In this document: one piece after another, positions 49,316 to 54,702 of the stretch | Position numbering within the stretch: position 1 is the first letter of the stretch | How the letters are laid out: every line of letters starts with the position of its first letter | Assembly: GCA_017380575.1 (NCBI GenBank) | Contig: JAFODS010000019.1 | Coordinates: 92,948-156,947 of the forward strand | Length of the DNA stretch: 64,000 nucleotides | DNA from: Clostridia bacterium | GTDB lineage: Bacteria > Bacillota > Clostridia > Oscillospirales > Acutalibacteraceae | Direction of reading: 5' to 3' | Made by a program: the position numbers and the translations under genes | The notes under the pieces: generated by a model | What the model was told of the DNA's origin: nothing | Seen by the model: only the letters and a program-made list of their open reading frames with translations | Database searches by the model: none

Positions 49316-50203
49316 ATGCCTAAGTATCTTATTGTTAACGCAGATGATTACGGAATGTGTAATGCTGCTAACGAAGCTGTTAATGAACTTTTTGAAGGTG
49401 GTTGGCTTAAGTCAGCTACTGTTATGATACCTTGTCCGGCTGCTAAAGCTGCTGTTGATTTTTCAAATGCTCATCCGGAGCACGCAATCGGTGTTCATCT
49501 TACAATGACAAGTGAGTGGGGCAAGTACCGTTGGAAACCGCTTACAAGAGGTAAGACTCTTATGGACGAAGCAGGTTTTATGTGGCACGAGAGTGATCAG
49601 GTTGAGAAGAATGCTTCTTATGAGGATCTTGAAGCTGAAATCCGTGCACAGATTGACCTTGCACACAGCTGGGGAATGAAGCCTTCACATACTGACAACC
49701 ATATGGGTTCACTTTACGGTCACTATACAGGCAGACTCGGTCTTTCTAAAATGACTCTTCGTGTCTGCGGTGAATACGGCTATGCTTACCGTCTTTACAC
49801 AAAGCACGATAAGAGAATCTGCCCGAAGGGTACACCGTATCCCCTCTATGCAGCTGTTACTCTTCTTTCAAAGCGTTGGGGTAAGAAATACGATGTTGTT
49901 ATTCCTGATTATCTTCTTTTCCCTGACTGGAATGATGATATGCGCGTAAGCTATGAGGTTTACCGTGATACAATTCTTAAAATCTGGACAAACATTCCTG
50001 AAGACGGTGTAACAGAAACGTTCGTACATCCATCAGTAGAGTGTGATGAACTCAAAGGCATCACATCAAGATGGCAGGACAGAGTCTGGGAATACGAGCT
50101 TATGAAAGACCCGTATGTTCACGAGTATCTTAAAAAGCACGATGTTGAACTCATCAGCTACCGTGAACTCATAAAGATGAAGGGCGGCAAGCTTAAGGGA
50201 TAA
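49316..50203 (+). CDS. ChbG/HpnK-family carbohydrate deacetylase
   Basis: YdjC-fold metal-dependent deacetylase, the family that removes an acetyl group from chitooligosaccharides (ChbG) or hopanoid-linked sugars. The signature NADDYGMC is at residues 7-14 with metal-binding Asp, GVHLTMTSEW near 60-69 holds a metal His, and PSHTDNHMGSLYGH near 121-134 the others. 295 aa is family size. Ribosome site AAAGGACT. The substrate is not known; no chb operon is adjacent. Confidence 0.88.
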   Translation: MPKYLIVNADDYGMCNAANEAVNELFEGGWLKSATVMIPCPAAKAAVDFSNAHPEHAIGVHLTMTSEWGKYRWKPLTRGKTLMDEAGFMWHESDQVEKNASYEDLEAEIRAQIDLAHSWGMKPSHTDNHMGSLYGHYTGRLGLSKMTLRVCGEYGYAYRLYTKHDKRICPKGTPYPLYAAVTLLSKRWGKKYDVVIPDYLLFPDWNDDMRVSYEVYRDTILKIWTNIPEDGVTETFVHPSVECDELKGITSRWQDRVWEYELMKDPYVHEYLKKHDVELISYRELIKMKGGKLKG

Positions 50204-50217
50204 TTGAATACATAATT

Positions 50218-50247
50218 AACGACGGCAGATTCTGCCGTCGTTTTTTG
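50218..50247 (+). terminator. Terminator after the deacetylase gene
   Basis: Perfect 12-bp stem AACGACGGCAGA / TCTGCCGTCGTT followed by TTTTT. Confidence 0.9.
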
Positions 50248-50294
50248 CTACCAATTCGGGTTTGTCGGAGTGTTTGAATTTTGCAGAATCCAAT

Positions 50295-50482
50295 ACCTCC
50301 ATCTGACGAGGGAGGTGGATTTTGCGAAGCAAAAGACGGAGGGAGAGATAGCACGAGTTTTTACTACCCCTCAGTCTTGCCTGCGGCAAGCCAGCTCCCC
50401 TGACAAGTGGAGCTACGCCCTTTTTTAGCTTGAAAGATTAGAAGAGCTCGACAAACCCGAATTTGTCAGGATGTTAAAACCC
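50295..50482. repeat. 188-bp direct repeat, copy 1
   Basis: Matches copy 2 (53009-53196) at all but four positions over 188 bp with no gap, by eye alignment. It contains a purine-rich CTCCATCTGACGAGGGAGG hairpin at the left, a CTTGCCTGCGGCAAG hairpin and a T-run (CCCTTTTTTAGC). It has no coding sequence. The copies lie 2.7 kb apart on either side of the two-component gene pair. Confidence 0.85.
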
Positions 50483-50708
50483 TTCTTGTAGGGCGTGACG
50501 CTCGTCGACACGCTGTTAAATATAGCAGATATCGGCACGTCGTAAACGTCGTGCCCTACTAAATAGATTCAGGCGTGTCCGTAGGGGAACATATTATGTT
50601 TCCGAAAAATCGCATAAAATTCGCGATCAGATGATATCTCACCCTACGGTGTTGATTTTAAAACATCCCTACAAACCTGAATTTGTTTAATTAACCCTCA
50701 AATATTAA
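50483..50708. other. Non-coding block of small hairpins between repeat and operator
   Basis: Contains GGCACG / CGTGCC (50534-50555) and GGAACAT / ATGTTTCC hairpins and stretches similar to those after copy 2 (GTAGGGGAACATA, CCTGAATTTGTTTAATT). No open frame worth calling. Confidence 0.5.
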
Positions 50709-50740
50709 TAATTTTGTCGATTTTTTCGATAGTTTTGCAT
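50709..50740 (+). promoter_or_regulatory. Direct-repeat box 1 (candidate LytTR operator)
   Basis: TAATTTTGTCG (50709-50719) and TAGTTTTGCAT (50730-50740), TTTTG cores 21 bp apart. It ends 5 bp before the -35 hexamer of the regulator gene. Same arrangement as boxes 2 and 3. AgrA/ComE-type LytTR regulators bind two short direct repeats on one face of the DNA with a spacing near 21 bp. Confidence 0.6.
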
Positions 50741-50745
50741 TTCCA

Positions 50746-50773
50746 TTGACAAGTTATACTCATTTTGTAATAA
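50746..50773 (+). promoter_or_regulatory. Promoter of the two-component pair
   Basis: TTGACA (50746-50751), 16-bp spacer, TAATAA (50768-50773), about 42 bp upstream of the response-regulator start and directly after box 1. Confidence 0.6.
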
Positions 50774-50815
50774 TGAAAATGTATAATTGTATTCAGTCAT
50801 AGGAGAGTACGTACA

Positions 50816-51523
50816 ATGAAAATTGCAATTTGTGATGATGAATCAAGAGTAATAGAAGAAGTGGAAAAGGCTTTGAACTATTATTTCGGAATAAAGTCCA
50901 TAGACGCAGAGATTTTCAGTTTTGAAAACGGTGAAGATTTACTGCACAGCAATATCAGTTTCGACATGGCTTTTCTTGATGTTGAAATGCCGTCCGTCAG
51001 CGGTGTTGAGGTCGGTAAAAAGCTAAAGCGGAAATTCAGCAATATTATAATCTTTATGATTACAGCATACTCTGAATATCTTGACGATGCATTCGAGCTC
51101 GGTGCTTACAGATTTCTGCAAAAGCCGTTGGACGTTACCCGACTGTACCGTTCATTGGATGCGGCGTTGCTTTCGATTTCAGGCAGGGATATCAAAATAA
51201 TCTGCCCGAACAATGACTCCGTAATGGTTTCAACTCAGTCAATAATCTTCTGCGAGACATACAAAAGAAAATCTAAAATCGTAACAACAAAAGGTCAGTA
51301 TATATCAAATGAATCTCTTGCATACTGGAAAGGTAAGTTGGATGAATTGAATTTTTGCTCACCGCACGCAAGCTATATAATAAATTTCAATTTTGTCGAG
51401 AGCTTTAACCGTTCATCGCTTACATTGGCTCACGAAGACCAAAAGTATATTATTTCAATTGCACCGAGCAAACAGTCAGAATTCCGCAAGAAAATGTTTT
51501 CGTTTGCAGAAAGAGGGGTGTGA
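50816..51523 (+). CDS. LytTR-family response regulator (AgrA-like)
   Basis: Two-domain response regulator, 235 aa. The receiver has acidic pair D7-D8, phospho-acceptor D55 in AFLDVEMPS, T83 in MITAYSEY and K103 in LQKPLD, all at the expected positions. Residues 130-235 form the LytTR DNA-binding domain (VMVSTQSIIFCETYKRKSKI, then FVESFNRSSLTL). It binds promoter direct repeats as a dimer in this family. An AGGAGAGTACGTAC region is the ribosome site. The kinase gene begins 1 bp after its stop. Confidence 0.92.
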   Translation: MKIAICDDESRVIEEVEKALNYYFGIKSIDAEIFSFENGEDLLHSNISFDMAFLDVEMPSVSGVEVGKKLKRKFSNIIIFMITAYSEYLDDAFELGAYRFLQKPLDVTRLYRSLDAALLSISGRDIKIICPNNDSVMVSTQSIIFCETYKRKSKIVTTKGQYISNESLAYWKGKLDELNFCSPHASYIINFNFVESFNRSSLTLAHEDQKYIISIAPSKQSEFRKKMFSFAERGV

Positions 51524-51524
51524 A

Positions 51525-52832
51525 ATGAGTAAATTAGGACTCTCCGCAACAATGTTTTTGGTTTATGCTTTAGGGACATATATTTTGTTCTGGTATGGTT
51601 ACCGACTATTTCCCTACAGAAAAAACTTTGCAACATCTATAAGCATCTGCTTTGGTGCAAATGTTATACTTTGGCTGCTTTTCAGCATTTTTCTTAATGA
51701 AGTTACAAACATCGTCGCAACACTCATTCTCTATGGTTTAGTTCTTTATTTCGCTTTCAGATGCGATAAAAAGCTTGCCGTTTTCCATTCTTTGGTGCTG
51801 GTTACTTTAATGGCAAGTGCAGAATATATTATAATTTTCTTGGTTTCCTATATTCTCAATCTGGAGATAACGCATTTTAAAAACGATTTCGTGATATTAG
51901 TTGAAGAAGCCTTCGCCTCAAAATTTTTATATTTCATTCTGTTGACGATAATCACATCATTTTCAAAAAAGCAAATGGAAAAGGGTGGCACAAAATCTTC
52001 GCTATATTTAACAATACTTCCTGCAACAACCTTTTTTATCACGGTTGCTTTGCGAGTACAAAGCCAATATTTTCAATCAAATGTTCTTTCAACAACCGTT
52101 TGTATAATTGCTGAAGTTCTTATGTTTGTTGCAAACATCGTTGTTTTCAGCGTTCATGAAAGAACGATTGACAATCAGAAGAAACTGCACGATATGGAAA
52201 TGGTTGAGCAGAAGCAGACAATCAACCTTGAATACCTTGATATTCTCGAAAAGAAAGACGAGGAGACAAGAATCTTTATTCACGACATCCGTAATAATCT
52301 TATCAACATAAGCAATCTGACCACAGAAGAAAATGTCAAGCAGTATATTCAGGACATCTACGATAAATCGAACGAAGTGTCAATCAAGGCTAAAACAAAG
52401 AACCGTGTGCTTGATGTCATAATCAATAAGTACGCTCTGCTGTGCAAAGATAAAAACATCCGTTTCACAACAGTTGCCCCTAACGAAAACCTTTCGTTTA
52501 TCAGCGATTATGATTTATCAGCCATTCTCGATAACATTTTAAGAAATGCAATCGAGAGAGCCGAAAAGGAATCTGACCCGTACATCGAGCTTACATTGGA
52601 TTGCGACAACAAGTTCCATAAGATTATTCTTAAAAACAGTTGTTCAAGCGAACCGGTTGCGGATAAGGATACTTTGATTACAACCAAGGAAAACAAGAAG
52701 TCCCACGGTTACGGAATGCGAAGTGTAGCCAAAGCATTGAAGAATTATAACGGTGAATTTGAGTGGATGTTTGAAAATAATGAGTTCAAAATAGTGATTT
52801 TAATACCCACCAAGACAAGCAATCTCAGTTGA
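51525..52832 (+). CDS. AgrC-like GHKL sensor histidine kinase
   Basis: 435 aa from the ATG at 51525, which follows AGAGGGGTGTGAA; the longer frame to 51393 runs inside the regulator gene. Six or so N-terminal membrane helices (to about residue 205) are followed by a coiled linker, the phosphorylation motif IFIHDIRNNL with H253, and an HATPase domain: DLSAILDNILRNAIERAEKE (N box) and HGYGMRSVAKALKNYNGEF (G2). This is the HPK10 class that senses peptide pheromones in Agr/Com-type systems. No AgrB or AgrD gene is in the window, so its ligand is unknown. Confidence 0.9.
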   Translation: MSKLGLSATMFLVYALGTYILFWYGYRLFPYRKNFATSISICFGANVILWLLFSIFLNEVTNIVATLILYGLVLYFAFRCDKKLAVFHSLVLVTLMASAEYIIIFLVSYILNLEITHFKNDFVILVEEAFASKFLYFILLTIITSFSKKQMEKGGTKSSLYLTILPATTFFITVALRVQSQYFQSNVLSTTVCIIAEVLMFVANIVVFSVHERTIDNQKKLHDMEMVEQKQTINLEYLDILEKKDEETRIFIHDIRNNLINISNLTTEENVKQYIQDIYDKSNEVSIKAKTKNRVLDVIINKYALLCKDKNIRFTTVAPNENLSFISDYDLSAILDNILRNAIERAEKESDPYIELTLDCDNKFHKIILKNSCSSEPVADKDTLITTKENKKSHGYGMRSVAKALKNYNGEFEWMFENNEFKIVILIPTKTSNLS

Positions 52833-52847
52833 TTGCTTGTCTTTTTT
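52812..52847 (+). terminator. Terminator after the kinase gene
   Basis: Perfect 13-bp stem AAGACAAGCAATC / GATTGCTTGTCTT, with the stop codon in the loop end, followed by TTTT. Confidence 0.9.
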
Positions 52848-53008
52848 GTGTCAGCAAATTCGGGTTTAATAAACAGATTTATTTTGTTTGTCGTAGGGAC
52901 GGGCGTCCTCGACCGTCCGCTAATACGACAGAATCTTCTTGCCTTTTTCGTATCATCAAGTTCGCTTTGTTGATGGTGTTGAATAAGGTGAATATCGGAA
53001 CAACAAAA
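52848..53008. other. Non-coding block with a GC hairpin
   Basis: Holds GGACGG / CCGTCC (about 52896-52918) and the AT-rich lead into repeat copy 2. No credible gene. Confidence 0.5.
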
Positions 53009-53196
53009 ACCTCCATCTGATGAGGGAGGTGGATTTTGCGAAGCAAAAGACGGAGGGAGAGATAGCACGAGCTTTTACTACCCCTCAGTCTTGCCTGCGG
53101 CAAGCCAGCTCCCCTGAAAAGTGGAGCTACGCCCTTTTTTAGCTTGAAAGATTAGAAGAGCTCGACAAACCCGAATTTATCAGGATGTTAAAACCC
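53009..53196. repeat. 188-bp direct repeat, copy 2
   Basis: Nearly identical to copy 1 (four mismatches seen by eye). The copies share further shorter blocks downstream, up to the operator box, so the whole repeat-plus-box unit may be duplicated. Confidence 0.85.
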
Positions 53197-53351
53197 TACG
53201 AACCACGATTCGGATGACTTCGTAGGGGAACATAATATGTTCCCGTTAAGATTTGCACAAAATCCGCGGGCAGATAATATCTGCCTCTACGATCTTGATT
53301 TTTATTCTGCTATACAACCCCGAATTTATTTAATTGAACCCGAAAGATTAA

Positions 53352-53383
53352 TATTTTTGTCGCTTTTTTCGATAGTTTTGCTT
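53352..53383 (+). promoter_or_regulatory. Direct-repeat box 2 (candidate LytTR operator)
   Basis: TATTTTTGTCG (53352-53362) and TAGTTTTGCTT (53373-53383), TTTTG cores 21 bp apart, 109 bp before the small membrane protein gene. Differs from box 1 at only a few positions. Confidence 0.55.
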
Positions 53384-53492
53384 CACACCTTTCTTTTTAG
53401 ATAGTTATTTCGTAACATAGCAACTGATATATGGTAATTGGTTTGTTGCACATTCAATTTTATTTATTAGGCACAGTTATGGGAGGCGTTTT

Positions 53493-53744
53493 ATGAAACG
53501 ATTAAGCAAAAAAGAACAACTCATTTTGGTAGTTTTTTCTGTAGTCTTATTTGGCGGTAGAATCCTTTTATGGGCAAGTGCTTTTACTTCAAATCAGAGG
53601 TTAATAATAATATCTTTTGTTATGAGATGTTTGTTTTATTTAATTTACATATTAGTAGTTGCTAAAGAGTCTAAAATCTTTGCCGTTTTATTATTTGCCT
53701 TCTTTATTATAGAACTTTTTGTATGGTATCCATTGTTCTTATAA
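53493..53744 (+). CDS. Small three-helix membrane protein
   Basis: 83 aa, MKRLSKKEQLI then three hydrophobic segments (residues about 11-28, 38-56 and 62-82) with a basic N terminus and very short loops. Strong GGGAGGCG ribosome site. No family recognised. AT-rich. It carries box 2 upstream and box 3 downstream, so it and the next gene are candidate targets of the adjacent regulator. Size and topology would fit an immunity, accessory or export-helper peptide, but this is only speculation. Confidence 0.7.
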   Translation: MKRLSKKEQLILVVFSVVLFGGRILLWASAFTSNQRLIIISFVMRCLFYLIYILVVAKESKIFAVLLFAFFIIELFVWYPLFL

Positions 53745-53887
53745 ATGCTATAAACAAACTAAGTTGTTGAGATATTCAATTGTGCATATATCAGACACCC
53801 TTGCATAAAGGGGGGCTACGTTCTGTTTTAAAACTGTAAAAAGACCTCCACAACTACGATTTTATTTACTTGAACCTGAAATATTAA

Positions 53888-53919
53888 TAATTTTGTCGCT
53901 TTTTTCTATAGTTTTGCAT
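53888..53919 (+). promoter_or_regulatory. Direct-repeat box 3 (candidate LytTR operator)
   Basis: TAATTTTGTCG (53888-53898) and TAGTTTTGCAT (53909-53919), identical to the half-sites of box 1 and also 21 bp apart. Confidence 0.6.
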
Positions 53920-53925
53920 TTGACC

Positions 53926-53954
53926 TTACTTTTTCTTATTCTGTGCTTTATAAT
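53926..53954 (+). promoter_or_regulatory. Promoter of the exported protein gene
   Basis: TTACTT (53926-53931), 17-bp spacer, TATAAT (53949-53954), directly after box 3 and 117 bp before the start codon, giving a long leader. Confidence 0.55.
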
Positions 53955-54071
53955 TCTTTCAAGGGAAATTTTTATAAAACCAATCTCAAATGCTTATGAT
54001 TGAAAAAAGAGGTGGTTTGACGTAATAAAAATACAATCAAACTATTTTAAAATCAGAAAGGAAAAATTATT

Positions 54072-54572
54072 ATGAAAATTATGTTAAAGAAAATTTTGTC
54101 ACTTGTTTTATGTGTAGTTTTAGCTTTTGCGATGTGTACAACAGCTTTTGCGGTTCCCGAAGAGCCGTTCCCTGAGGATTATTGCGAAATTAAGGGTGAA
54201 CTGTTGACAGTAATTGGTTTTAGCCGTAATGACAAAATAGAGTTGTATGCTGAATACTACTCAAACACCGATGCAAATGCACATCTTGTCTGGACGATTG
54301 AAGGTGAAAGCAAATTTATACGTTCGGAAGATGATAAAATGTCAACCAAAGACCATGTTGCTGTGCGTTTCAAGGGTGAATCTGTTGTCAGACTGCAACT
54401 TGTTTCTACAAGCGGTGAGGTGCTTGCCGAGGACGAGGTTACTCTCAAGGAATATGTAGATAATACATCATTTTGGGAGGATCTTCCGGCAAATATTATG
54501 ATGTCAATTATGGTTATTATCGGTGTAATCGGCGGAACTATCATGCCGCTGTTCAGTTGGATGTGGAACTAA
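54072..54572 (+). CDS. Exported, C-terminally membrane-anchored protein of unknown function
   Basis: 166 aa. A signal peptide (LKKILSLVLCVVLAFAMCTTAFA, cleavage after AFA near residue 28) is followed by an extracytoplasmic region of about 110 residues that looks like one beta-sandwich/Ig-like domain (HLVWTIEGESKFIRSEDDK, then VVRLQLVSTSGEVLAEDEV) and a C-terminal helix (IMMSIMVIIGVIGGTIMPLF) ending in SWMWN. It is therefore a type I-like surface protein. No LPXTG. Its own box 3 and promoter link it to the two-component system. No close family recognised. Confidence 0.75.
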   Translation: MKIMLKKILSLVLCVVLAFAMCTTAFAVPEEPFPEDYCEIKGELLTVIGFSRNDKIELYAEYYSNTDANAHLVWTIEGESKFIRSEDDKMSTKDHVAVRFKGESVVRLQLVSTSGEVLAEDEVTLKEYVDNTSFWEDLPANIMMSIMVIIGVIGGTIMPLFSWMWN

Positions 54573-54702
54573 TGTTTTTTAGGGAATGTTAAACACATAG
54601 GAAAAGATGTAAAACTAACGGCAGGATACAAAGATGACACTTCTCTATGTTAGTTGAAAACTGAAACTTCATTGGGTAACCTTTGTCACAGACAATGTAT
54701 TA

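Follow-up and report, generated by a model that had tools for sequence, protein, structure and literature searches.

Paired direct repeats as probable operators of an AgrA-type LytTR regulator in an uncultured member of the Clostridia

The DNA studied here, in the following referred to as the window, is a stretch of 64,000 nucleotides (nt) from contig JAFODS010000019.1 (C14 in our numbering) of an uncultured, gut-type Clostridia bacterium whose 2.52-Mb assembly, GCA_017380575.1, is designated G000. It contains the genes of a response regulator of the AgrA/ComE type and of an AgrC-like histidine kinase and, close to them, three boxes each harbouring two TTTTG half-sites. These boxes are probably operators of an AgrA-type LytTR regulator, be it the version encoded in the window or a paralogous one encoded on contig C16. 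Since boxes of this type also precede surface-protein genes elsewhere in the genome, the circuit looks wider than local and looks like one of cell-to-cell communication. The boxes of the window are as follows (E-values refer to the sequence model introduced below, for which all three served as training sites):

50709–50740, plus strand: box 1, TTTTG half-sites starting at 50712 and 50733, 5' of the regulator and kinase genes, E = 3.4e-12
53352–53383, plus strand: box 2, half-sites starting at 53355 and 53376, 5' of a gene for a protein of 83 amino acids (aa), E = 1.1e-11
53888–53919, plus strand: box 3, half-sites starting at 53891 and 53912, 5' of a gene for a 166-aa protein, E = 2.0e-12

The two half-sites start exactly 21 bp apart in all three boxes, and boxes 1 and 3 are identical in both of them. 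Coordinates and letters are as given in a preliminary description of this DNA, which had also placed the boxes correctly 5' of a LytTR regulator, an 83-residue membrane protein and an exported membrane-anchored protein. The bare pair TTTTG-N16-TTTTG was dropped as a motif because its 60 matches in the assembly are no better than the 62 obtained for the reversed control and hence at chance level. The 27-nt motif TTTTGTCGNTTTTTTNNNNANTTTTGC is present at eight genomic sites if no more than one mismatch is allowed, compared to none for its reversed control; with up to three mismatches 11 matches are found in the genome versus three for the control. At a repeat lag of 21 bp the best 9-mer window is 81% identical over the eight sites, while no other lag between 15 and 27 bp exceeds 58%. 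A 50-column sequence model was built from 16 sites, eight of which stem from G000 and match it by construction. A search of G000 with this model returns exactly eight sites at E ≤ 3.3e-5, the next match appearing only at 0.02; as these eight are training sites, it is this gap in E-value rather than their recovery which is informative. The sites and their targets are:

C14 (the window), boxes 1 to 3: regulator/kinase pair, 83-aa gene and 166-aa gene
C16:36191, just past a paralogous kinase gene: subtilase carrying leucine-rich repeats of the BspA type
C16:32067, 4 kb beyond C16:36191: RHS-repeat protein of 1633 aa
C37:17838: two dockerin type I proteins in succession
C76:15617: ECF sigma factor and Big_3 protein 475 nt further on, with repeat DNA in between
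C16:127: runs off the contig end

Seven of the eight sites are followed by a gene on their own strand, the eighth being the one at the contig end. This placement, together with the small number of sites, largely answers the worry expressed in the preliminary description that a genome-wide scan might expose the motif as a plain repeat. The regulon was, however, wrongly thought to be self-contained, as C16, C37 and C76, all outside the window, hold five of the eight sites. The Big_3 protein encoded next to the ECF sigma factor is possibly the anti-sigma factor of the latter. In two further genomes an ECF sigma factor/Big_3 pair is followed by the gene of a homologue of the 166-aa protein, directly in G012 (64% identity) and with one gene intervening in G014 (44% identity). 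Two unlinked box targets of G000 thus have neighbouring homologues elsewhere, so that the boxes they share argue for one programme.

Within a search range of 29–33 nt, a -10-like hexamer is found 31–32 nt past the second TTTTG at all eight sites. Summed over these sites, 42 of 48 positions match TATAAT in this range, compared to a mean of 29.3 and a maximum of 38 in 20,000 shuffles, none of which is as good; it counts against this figure that the shuffles preserve base composition only and that ties were resolved towards 31. All other 5-nt windows at 10–59 nt, 30–34 itself excepted, reach 33 matches at most. The elements seen behind the three boxes of the window are:

50746–50774, plus strand: promoter past box 1, TTGACA-17-AATAAT with TG before the -10, 11 of 12 matches
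53413–53418, plus strand: candidate -10 TAACAT (four of six matches), 32 nt past box 2
53949–53954, plus strand: -10 TATAAT, 32 nt past box 3

The promoter past box 1 is the best among 15 promoter-like sites in 50200–54700, a total which corresponds to the shuffled mean of 14.7. The boxes comprise two direct repeats, 21 bp from start to start, positioned just 5' of the -35 element. According to passages of PMC6193735, LytTR systems use 9-bp repeats separated by a 12-bp spacer about 10 bp ahead of the -35 element, with poorly conserved half-sites, and excerpts of PMC11347149 and PMC2766830 support this layout; the arrangement of box and promoter appears close to it. The initial assignment of the boxes to LytTR-type direct repeats hence agrees with geometry, genome-wide placement and comparison alike.

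The genes of the window cluster and a hairpin within it are:

50816–51523, plus strand: response regulator with receiver and LytTR domains (AgrA/ComE type); Response_reg 3.6e-16 and LytTR 2.9e-12, both above the Pfam cut-off
51525–52832, plus strand: AgrC-like membrane histidine kinase (GHKL); HATPase_c_5 2.7e-20, H253 and N box present
52812–52843, plus strand: terminator-like hairpin at the end of the kinase gene
53493–53744, plus strand: 83-aa hydrophobic membrane protein without family match
54072–54572, plus strand: 166-aa exported protein with N- and C-terminal hydrophobic stretches and a C-terminal membrane helix

Judged by its key residues, the regulator/kinase pair is intact. A structure model of the regulator (mean predicted local distance difference test score, pLDDT, of 87) has full-length ComE as its best fold match (4cbv, E = 1.3e-12). 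The phosphoacceptor and active-site residues D7, D8, D55, T83 and K103 are all present and invariant in an alignment with 34 of 80 relatives. The rows of a VIA alignment span almost only the receiver domain and are thus little informative on the LytTR domain. When the PDB was searched with the LytTR domain alone no LytTR entry was obtained, the best matches having E-values of 0.59 or worse. In AgrA, as stated in parts of PMC4227749, the motif FFRCHNS contacts DNA through Arg198 and Asn201. The window regulator reads FCSPHAS instead, so that Ser and Ala replace these two residues, and the changed contact residues could accompany the altered half-sites. The kinase matches the model HisKinAgrCStaph at 3.1e-8, which is far below the curated cut-off of that model.

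The 83-aa protein gave no match in a phage search; in two sister loci no open reading frame (ORF) of its type is found between the kinase gene and the next box, and among the loci compared the only copies belong to G000. For the 166-aa protein a beta-rich ectodomain is predicted with low confidence (mean pLDDT 69), and we attach no functional meaning to the fold matches of this low-confidence model, which are mostly p53-type beta sandwiches (best E = 3.6e-3). A 90-aa exported protein of G004 (L171:1658–1930) has a GAVGGTIG helix at its C-terminus which is similar to the end of the 166-aa protein (E = 3.7e-4); its gene is separated by about 1.6 kb from a LytTR/AgrC-like pair of 32% identity.

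Sites are present in six of 18 genomes of the genus (17 matches versus two for the control). Outside the genus, six of 392 genomes of the family have one match each versus five control matches, a similar count for which reason we take them as chance. Regulators 97% identical to that of the window are found in two species of the same genus, G009 (RGIG6217, sheep rectum) and G010 (RGIG8518, water deer cecum). Box 1 is kept in both, in G009 with one mismatch, and each has a further box 5' of the gene for an exported protein related to the 166-aa protein. In an alignment of the upstream regions of the three species conservation starts at about the box and extends into the promoter. A model scan of ten chosen genomes at E ≤ 1e-4 yields, mostly as training sites, eight sites in G000, three in G009, five in G010 and one each in G012 and G013; five other genomes of the genus, whose best regulators are at most 32% identical, have no model site (best E-values 0.014–0.15). 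Three G010 sites, on its contigs C85, C23 and C36, and one site of G017 had been left out of the model. Of these, C85 fits with a spacing of 21, TTTTT as second half-site and TATAAT at 31, next to ECF sigma factor and Big_3 genes, and C23 with a spacing of 20 and TACAAT at 32, next to the gene of a secreted protein with leucine-rich repeats and dockerin.

Among 80 regulator loci scanned with up to four mismatches, ten have any match: L088 and L089 from the G009 and G010 species, L090 and L093 with three mismatches, and six loci with four. L090, from an uncultured Lachnospiraceae metagenome-assembled genome, encodes a 66%-identical regulator, an AgrB (2e-37), a GHKL kinase and an AgrD-like ORF scoring 19.4 bits (cut-off 19); its box lies just past the kinase gene. 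The box-like site of L093 (5861–5887, minus strand) is about 1.1 kb away from the gene of a regulator with 37% identity.

A search of G000 for LytTR domains yielded five, among them those of proteins encoded on C15, C16, C19 and C76. The regulator/kinase pair on C16 is paralogous to that of the window, with 71% identity between the regulators (67% in the LytTR half) and, for the kinases, 79–83% in the kinase half and 52–56% in the sensor half. The GHKL kinase and LytTR regulator genes of C16 are found near an agrB gene (Pfam AgrB, 2e-35) and a 53-aa agrD-like ORF (L035:12867–13028; TIGR04223, 20.0 bits, cut-off 19) whose stop overlaps the agrB start; agrDB lies on the strand opposite to the paralogous pair, separated from it by a helix-turn-helix-type gene. 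Hence, agrB, agrD, agrC and agrA occur together on C16. In contrast, the window cluster has neither agrB nor agrD beside agrCA: AgrB is found in G000 only on C16, apart from one below-cut-off match on C33, and a tblastn search of the window with AgrD queries from two relatives finds no AgrD-like ORF (best E = 0.31), while the same queries recover that of G013 at 3e-8 and 1e-6. What the preliminary description said on the lack of AgrB and AgrD is thus true of the window cluster and untrue of the genome; of the LytTR regulon it saw next to an AgrA/AgrC-like pair, the LytTR-type operators and an autoregulation stand as probable, while self-containment and a genome-wide lack of agrBD do not stand. 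In the C16 AgrD-like peptide Ser occupies the position at which the ring Cys is usually found, so that a lactone would be formed. The G013 counterpart (L168:5677–5811) also has Ser, that of L090 has Cys. At L037:3405–3893 a 162-aa LytTR-domain protein without receiver domain is encoded, 8 kb from the C76 box.

As to the DNA around the boxes, INDEPENDENCE, boxes 1 and 2 are located at the ends of partly duplicated stretches (209 nt at 94% and 134 nt at 78% identity), the longer repeat unit having the following copies:

50275–50483, plus strand: copy 1, 94% identical to copy 2
52989–53197, plus strand: copy 2, 94% identical to copy 1

Repeats resembling miniature inverted-repeat transposable elements with AATTCGGGTTTGT ends are seen in the window at 50253–50463, 50671–50683, 53165–53177 and 53314–53326. 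With at most one mismatch AATTCGGGTTTGT matches the window five times versus 0.13 expected, and exact copies are also present in L086 and, close to the sigma-factor site, in L037.

The duplicated ends, together with about 40 nt of upstream sequence common to all three window boxes, would suit the view that the boxes are plain dispersed repeats or were carried along by passive duplications. This view is weakened to the point of being very improbable by what happens beyond the window. A query of box 3 with its flanks finds only three other places at E below 0.01, and the sole one outside the window, C16:32047, begins 7 nt ahead of the box, reaches the -35 element and excludes the upstream flank; the upstream flanks of the C37 and C76 sites are visibly different, and conservation in the two same-genus species runs from about the box into the promoter. 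A second reading takes the boxes for Spo0A sites. The Spo0A site is TGTCGAA, with the box form TGNCGAA. At box 1 and at the C37 site the sequence is TTTTGTCGA, which resembles it, and G000 encodes Spo0A. Yet the sites do not follow the TGNCGAA form, as all four bases occur directly past TTTTGTCG while the position after that is T in 15 of 16, and a second TTTTGC 21 bp further on is kept. In addition, Spo0A is found in 15 of 18 genomes of the genus, 12 of them box-less, and not in the site-bearing but incomplete assemblies of G009, G010 and G017. We regard this reading as largely refuted and just as improbable.

More weight has to be given to the idea that the boxes are operated solely by some other LytTR protein, be it the C16 agr regulator or one of those from C15, C19 or C76, the window pair having another job or having lost binding. 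The close similarity of the C16 regulator speaks for it, and so do the box directly past the C16 kinase gene, the further LytTR proteins on C15, C19 and C76, the short distance between the latter and the C76 box, and the C19 regulator, whose orthologues in G009 (98%) and G010 (94%) mirror those of the window regulator, with no more than 51% identity seen in any of the remaining regulator loci under comparison. We nevertheless consider it unlikely. G009 and G010 have three and five sites with no AgrB found (assemblies 68% and 77% complete), so that a C16-type locus seems not to be required there; no good site is found near the C15 and C19 regulator genes; both species have conserved box 1 ahead of the window pair; and L090 links the box to an agr-type regulator. 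Among the matches listed for the C76 protein, no orthologue from G009 or G010 is seen. The argument that C19-like regulators occur in box-less genomes was dropped, as the 94–98% orthologues are found only in the box-bearing G009 and G010. With regulator and boxes as proposed, the kinase might still not sense an AgrD peptide, which strikes us as quite conceivable. Excerpts of PMC10602386 report RgaS of Clostridioides difficile to be AgrC-like yet unresponsive to AgrD1, the window cluster comes without agrBD, and the failure to find AgrB in the incomplete G009 and G010 assemblies points the same way. On the other hand, the close relatives on C16 and in L090 adjoin agrB and agrD, and between window and G010 (L083:4284–5723) the sensor half of the kinase is 70–78% identical, compared to 93–96% for the kinase half and 97% for the regulator, a divergence which looks as in peptide-specificity groups. 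We lean slightly towards an AgrD peptide as kinase input.

Several observations weigh against regarding the boxes as operators of the window or C16 regulator, or against parts of the case made for it. Because of the duplicated ends and the shared upstream sequence the window boxes do not represent three independent events. The half-sites agree with the AgrA consensus at only 11–12 of 16 positions. If the offsets searched are widened to 20–45 nt, the best -10 element remains at 31–32 nt in no more than six of the eight sites, the exceptions being box 1 (TATAAT at 44 nt) and C16:32067 (TATAGT at 37 nt). No well-scoring box is present 5' of the C16 agrBD or the C16 regulator gene; in excerpts of PMC10602386, clostridial agr systems are said to be generally not autoregulatory. 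As the C19 regulator has orthologues in the same two box-bearing species, species distribution alone cannot name the binder. The held-out C36 site of G010 misfits, as it faces a converging gene, has no gene in its own direction and finds its best -10, AATGAT, at 29. G012 (68% complete) has one site, yet no close regulator was found in it, and the agr locus of G013 (regulator 36% identical) lacks a box though one is present elsewhere in that genome. The single site of G017 recurs identically in another genus (G114; L087:3675–3701 and L174) and may be unrelated to the boxes. This site lies 66 nt ahead of a methyltransferase-like gene (named by eye); chance, transfer or contamination come into consideration. 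Fisher tests of the association give p = 0.025 (3/3 versus 3/15) and p = 0.005 (4/4 versus 2/14), but count G017 as site-bearing and ignore relatedness. Finally, fast evolution of the sensor rests on the comparison with G010, because the sensors of window and G009 are 99% identical.

If the boxes are operators of the AgrA-type regulator, they would be served by the protein encoded at 50816–51523, by its C16 paralogue, or by both. A phosphorylated dimer would occupy the two half-sites, two helical turns apart and just 5' of the -35 element, and would recruit RNA polymerase to the -10 element located 31–32 nt past the second half-site; we infer activation rather than repression. Box 1 would then probably lead to self-activation of the regulator/kinase pair, while boxes 2 and 3 would turn on the membrane and the exported protein, and the five further sites would add secreted, dockerin-bearing and repeat-rich surface proteins to the regulon, along with the ECF sigma factor and its Big_3 protein. 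The AgrC-like kinase would most likely sense a cyclic peptide, whose nearest source within the genome is the agrBD pair on C16. A rather doubtful extension is a two-tier circuit in which the C16 agr system switches on, via a shared diverged operator, a second self-activating pair without AgrBD of its own. This second pair, the sensor half of which has diverged in one sister species, might act as an amplifier of, or an eavesdropper on, Ser-lactone peptides produced by the cell itself or its neighbours, and might commit cells to the surface-protein and ECF-sigma programme.

For Agr-type signalling in uncultured Clostridia the analysis thus names a specific candidate operator, the layout of its promoter and a set of targets; the two nearest named relatives were sampled from sheep rectum and water-deer cecum. 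The half-sites are so diverged that a consensus scan could miss them. Dockerin proteins, subtilase and ECF sigma factor as targets suggest that peptide signalling controls the cell surface, and a receiver pair without own signal genes beside a complete paralogue which apparently uses the same operator offers a direct way to test for cross-talk or eavesdropping. A literature search with partial coverage, confined to titles and the beginnings of abstracts, returned no description of this operator or circuit. Within a known kind of system, the distinctive features are the diverged half-sites with altered residues at DNA-contact positions, a probably self-activating receiver pair without own signal genes and the surface/secreted regulon.

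Among known systems, VirS/VirR of Clostridium perfringens likewise pairs an AgrC-like kinase with a LytTR regulator and has secreted toxins as targets; in excerpts of PMC2838878 and PMC10602386 VirS is said to respond to Agr peptide, and those of PMC2838878 place the VirR boxes immediately 5' of the -35 element. The window system differs in that box 1 implies self-activation and in that a complete paralogous agr locus is also present in G000. Furthermore, the resemblance to the VirR core AGTTNTNCA, 6–7 of 7 positions, is confined to the second half-site of the window boxes. RgaS/RgaR of C. difficile is again composed of AgrC-like kinase and LytTR regulator, and parts of PMC10602386 locate critical Gs for RgaR at -51 and -72, i.e. 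21 bp apart. However, RgaR activates agrB1D1, whereas in G000 agrBD lacks a good box upstream and box 1 stands ahead of the window pair itself. AgrC/AgrA of Staphylococcus aureus is similar in domain make-up and autoactivation, with AgrA repeats upstream of promoters and centred near -60 according to excerpts of PMC4227749, but differs in its half-sites, in having FFRCHNS where the window regulator has FCSPHAS, and in that agrBD of G000 is placed on another contig. The HdrRM and BrsRM LytTR systems, as far as outlined in parts of PMC6193735, share 9-12-9 repeats about 10 bp before the -35 element, low half-site conservation and positive feedback; they consist, however, of a LytTR protein and a membrane inhibitor and are thus distinct from two-component systems.

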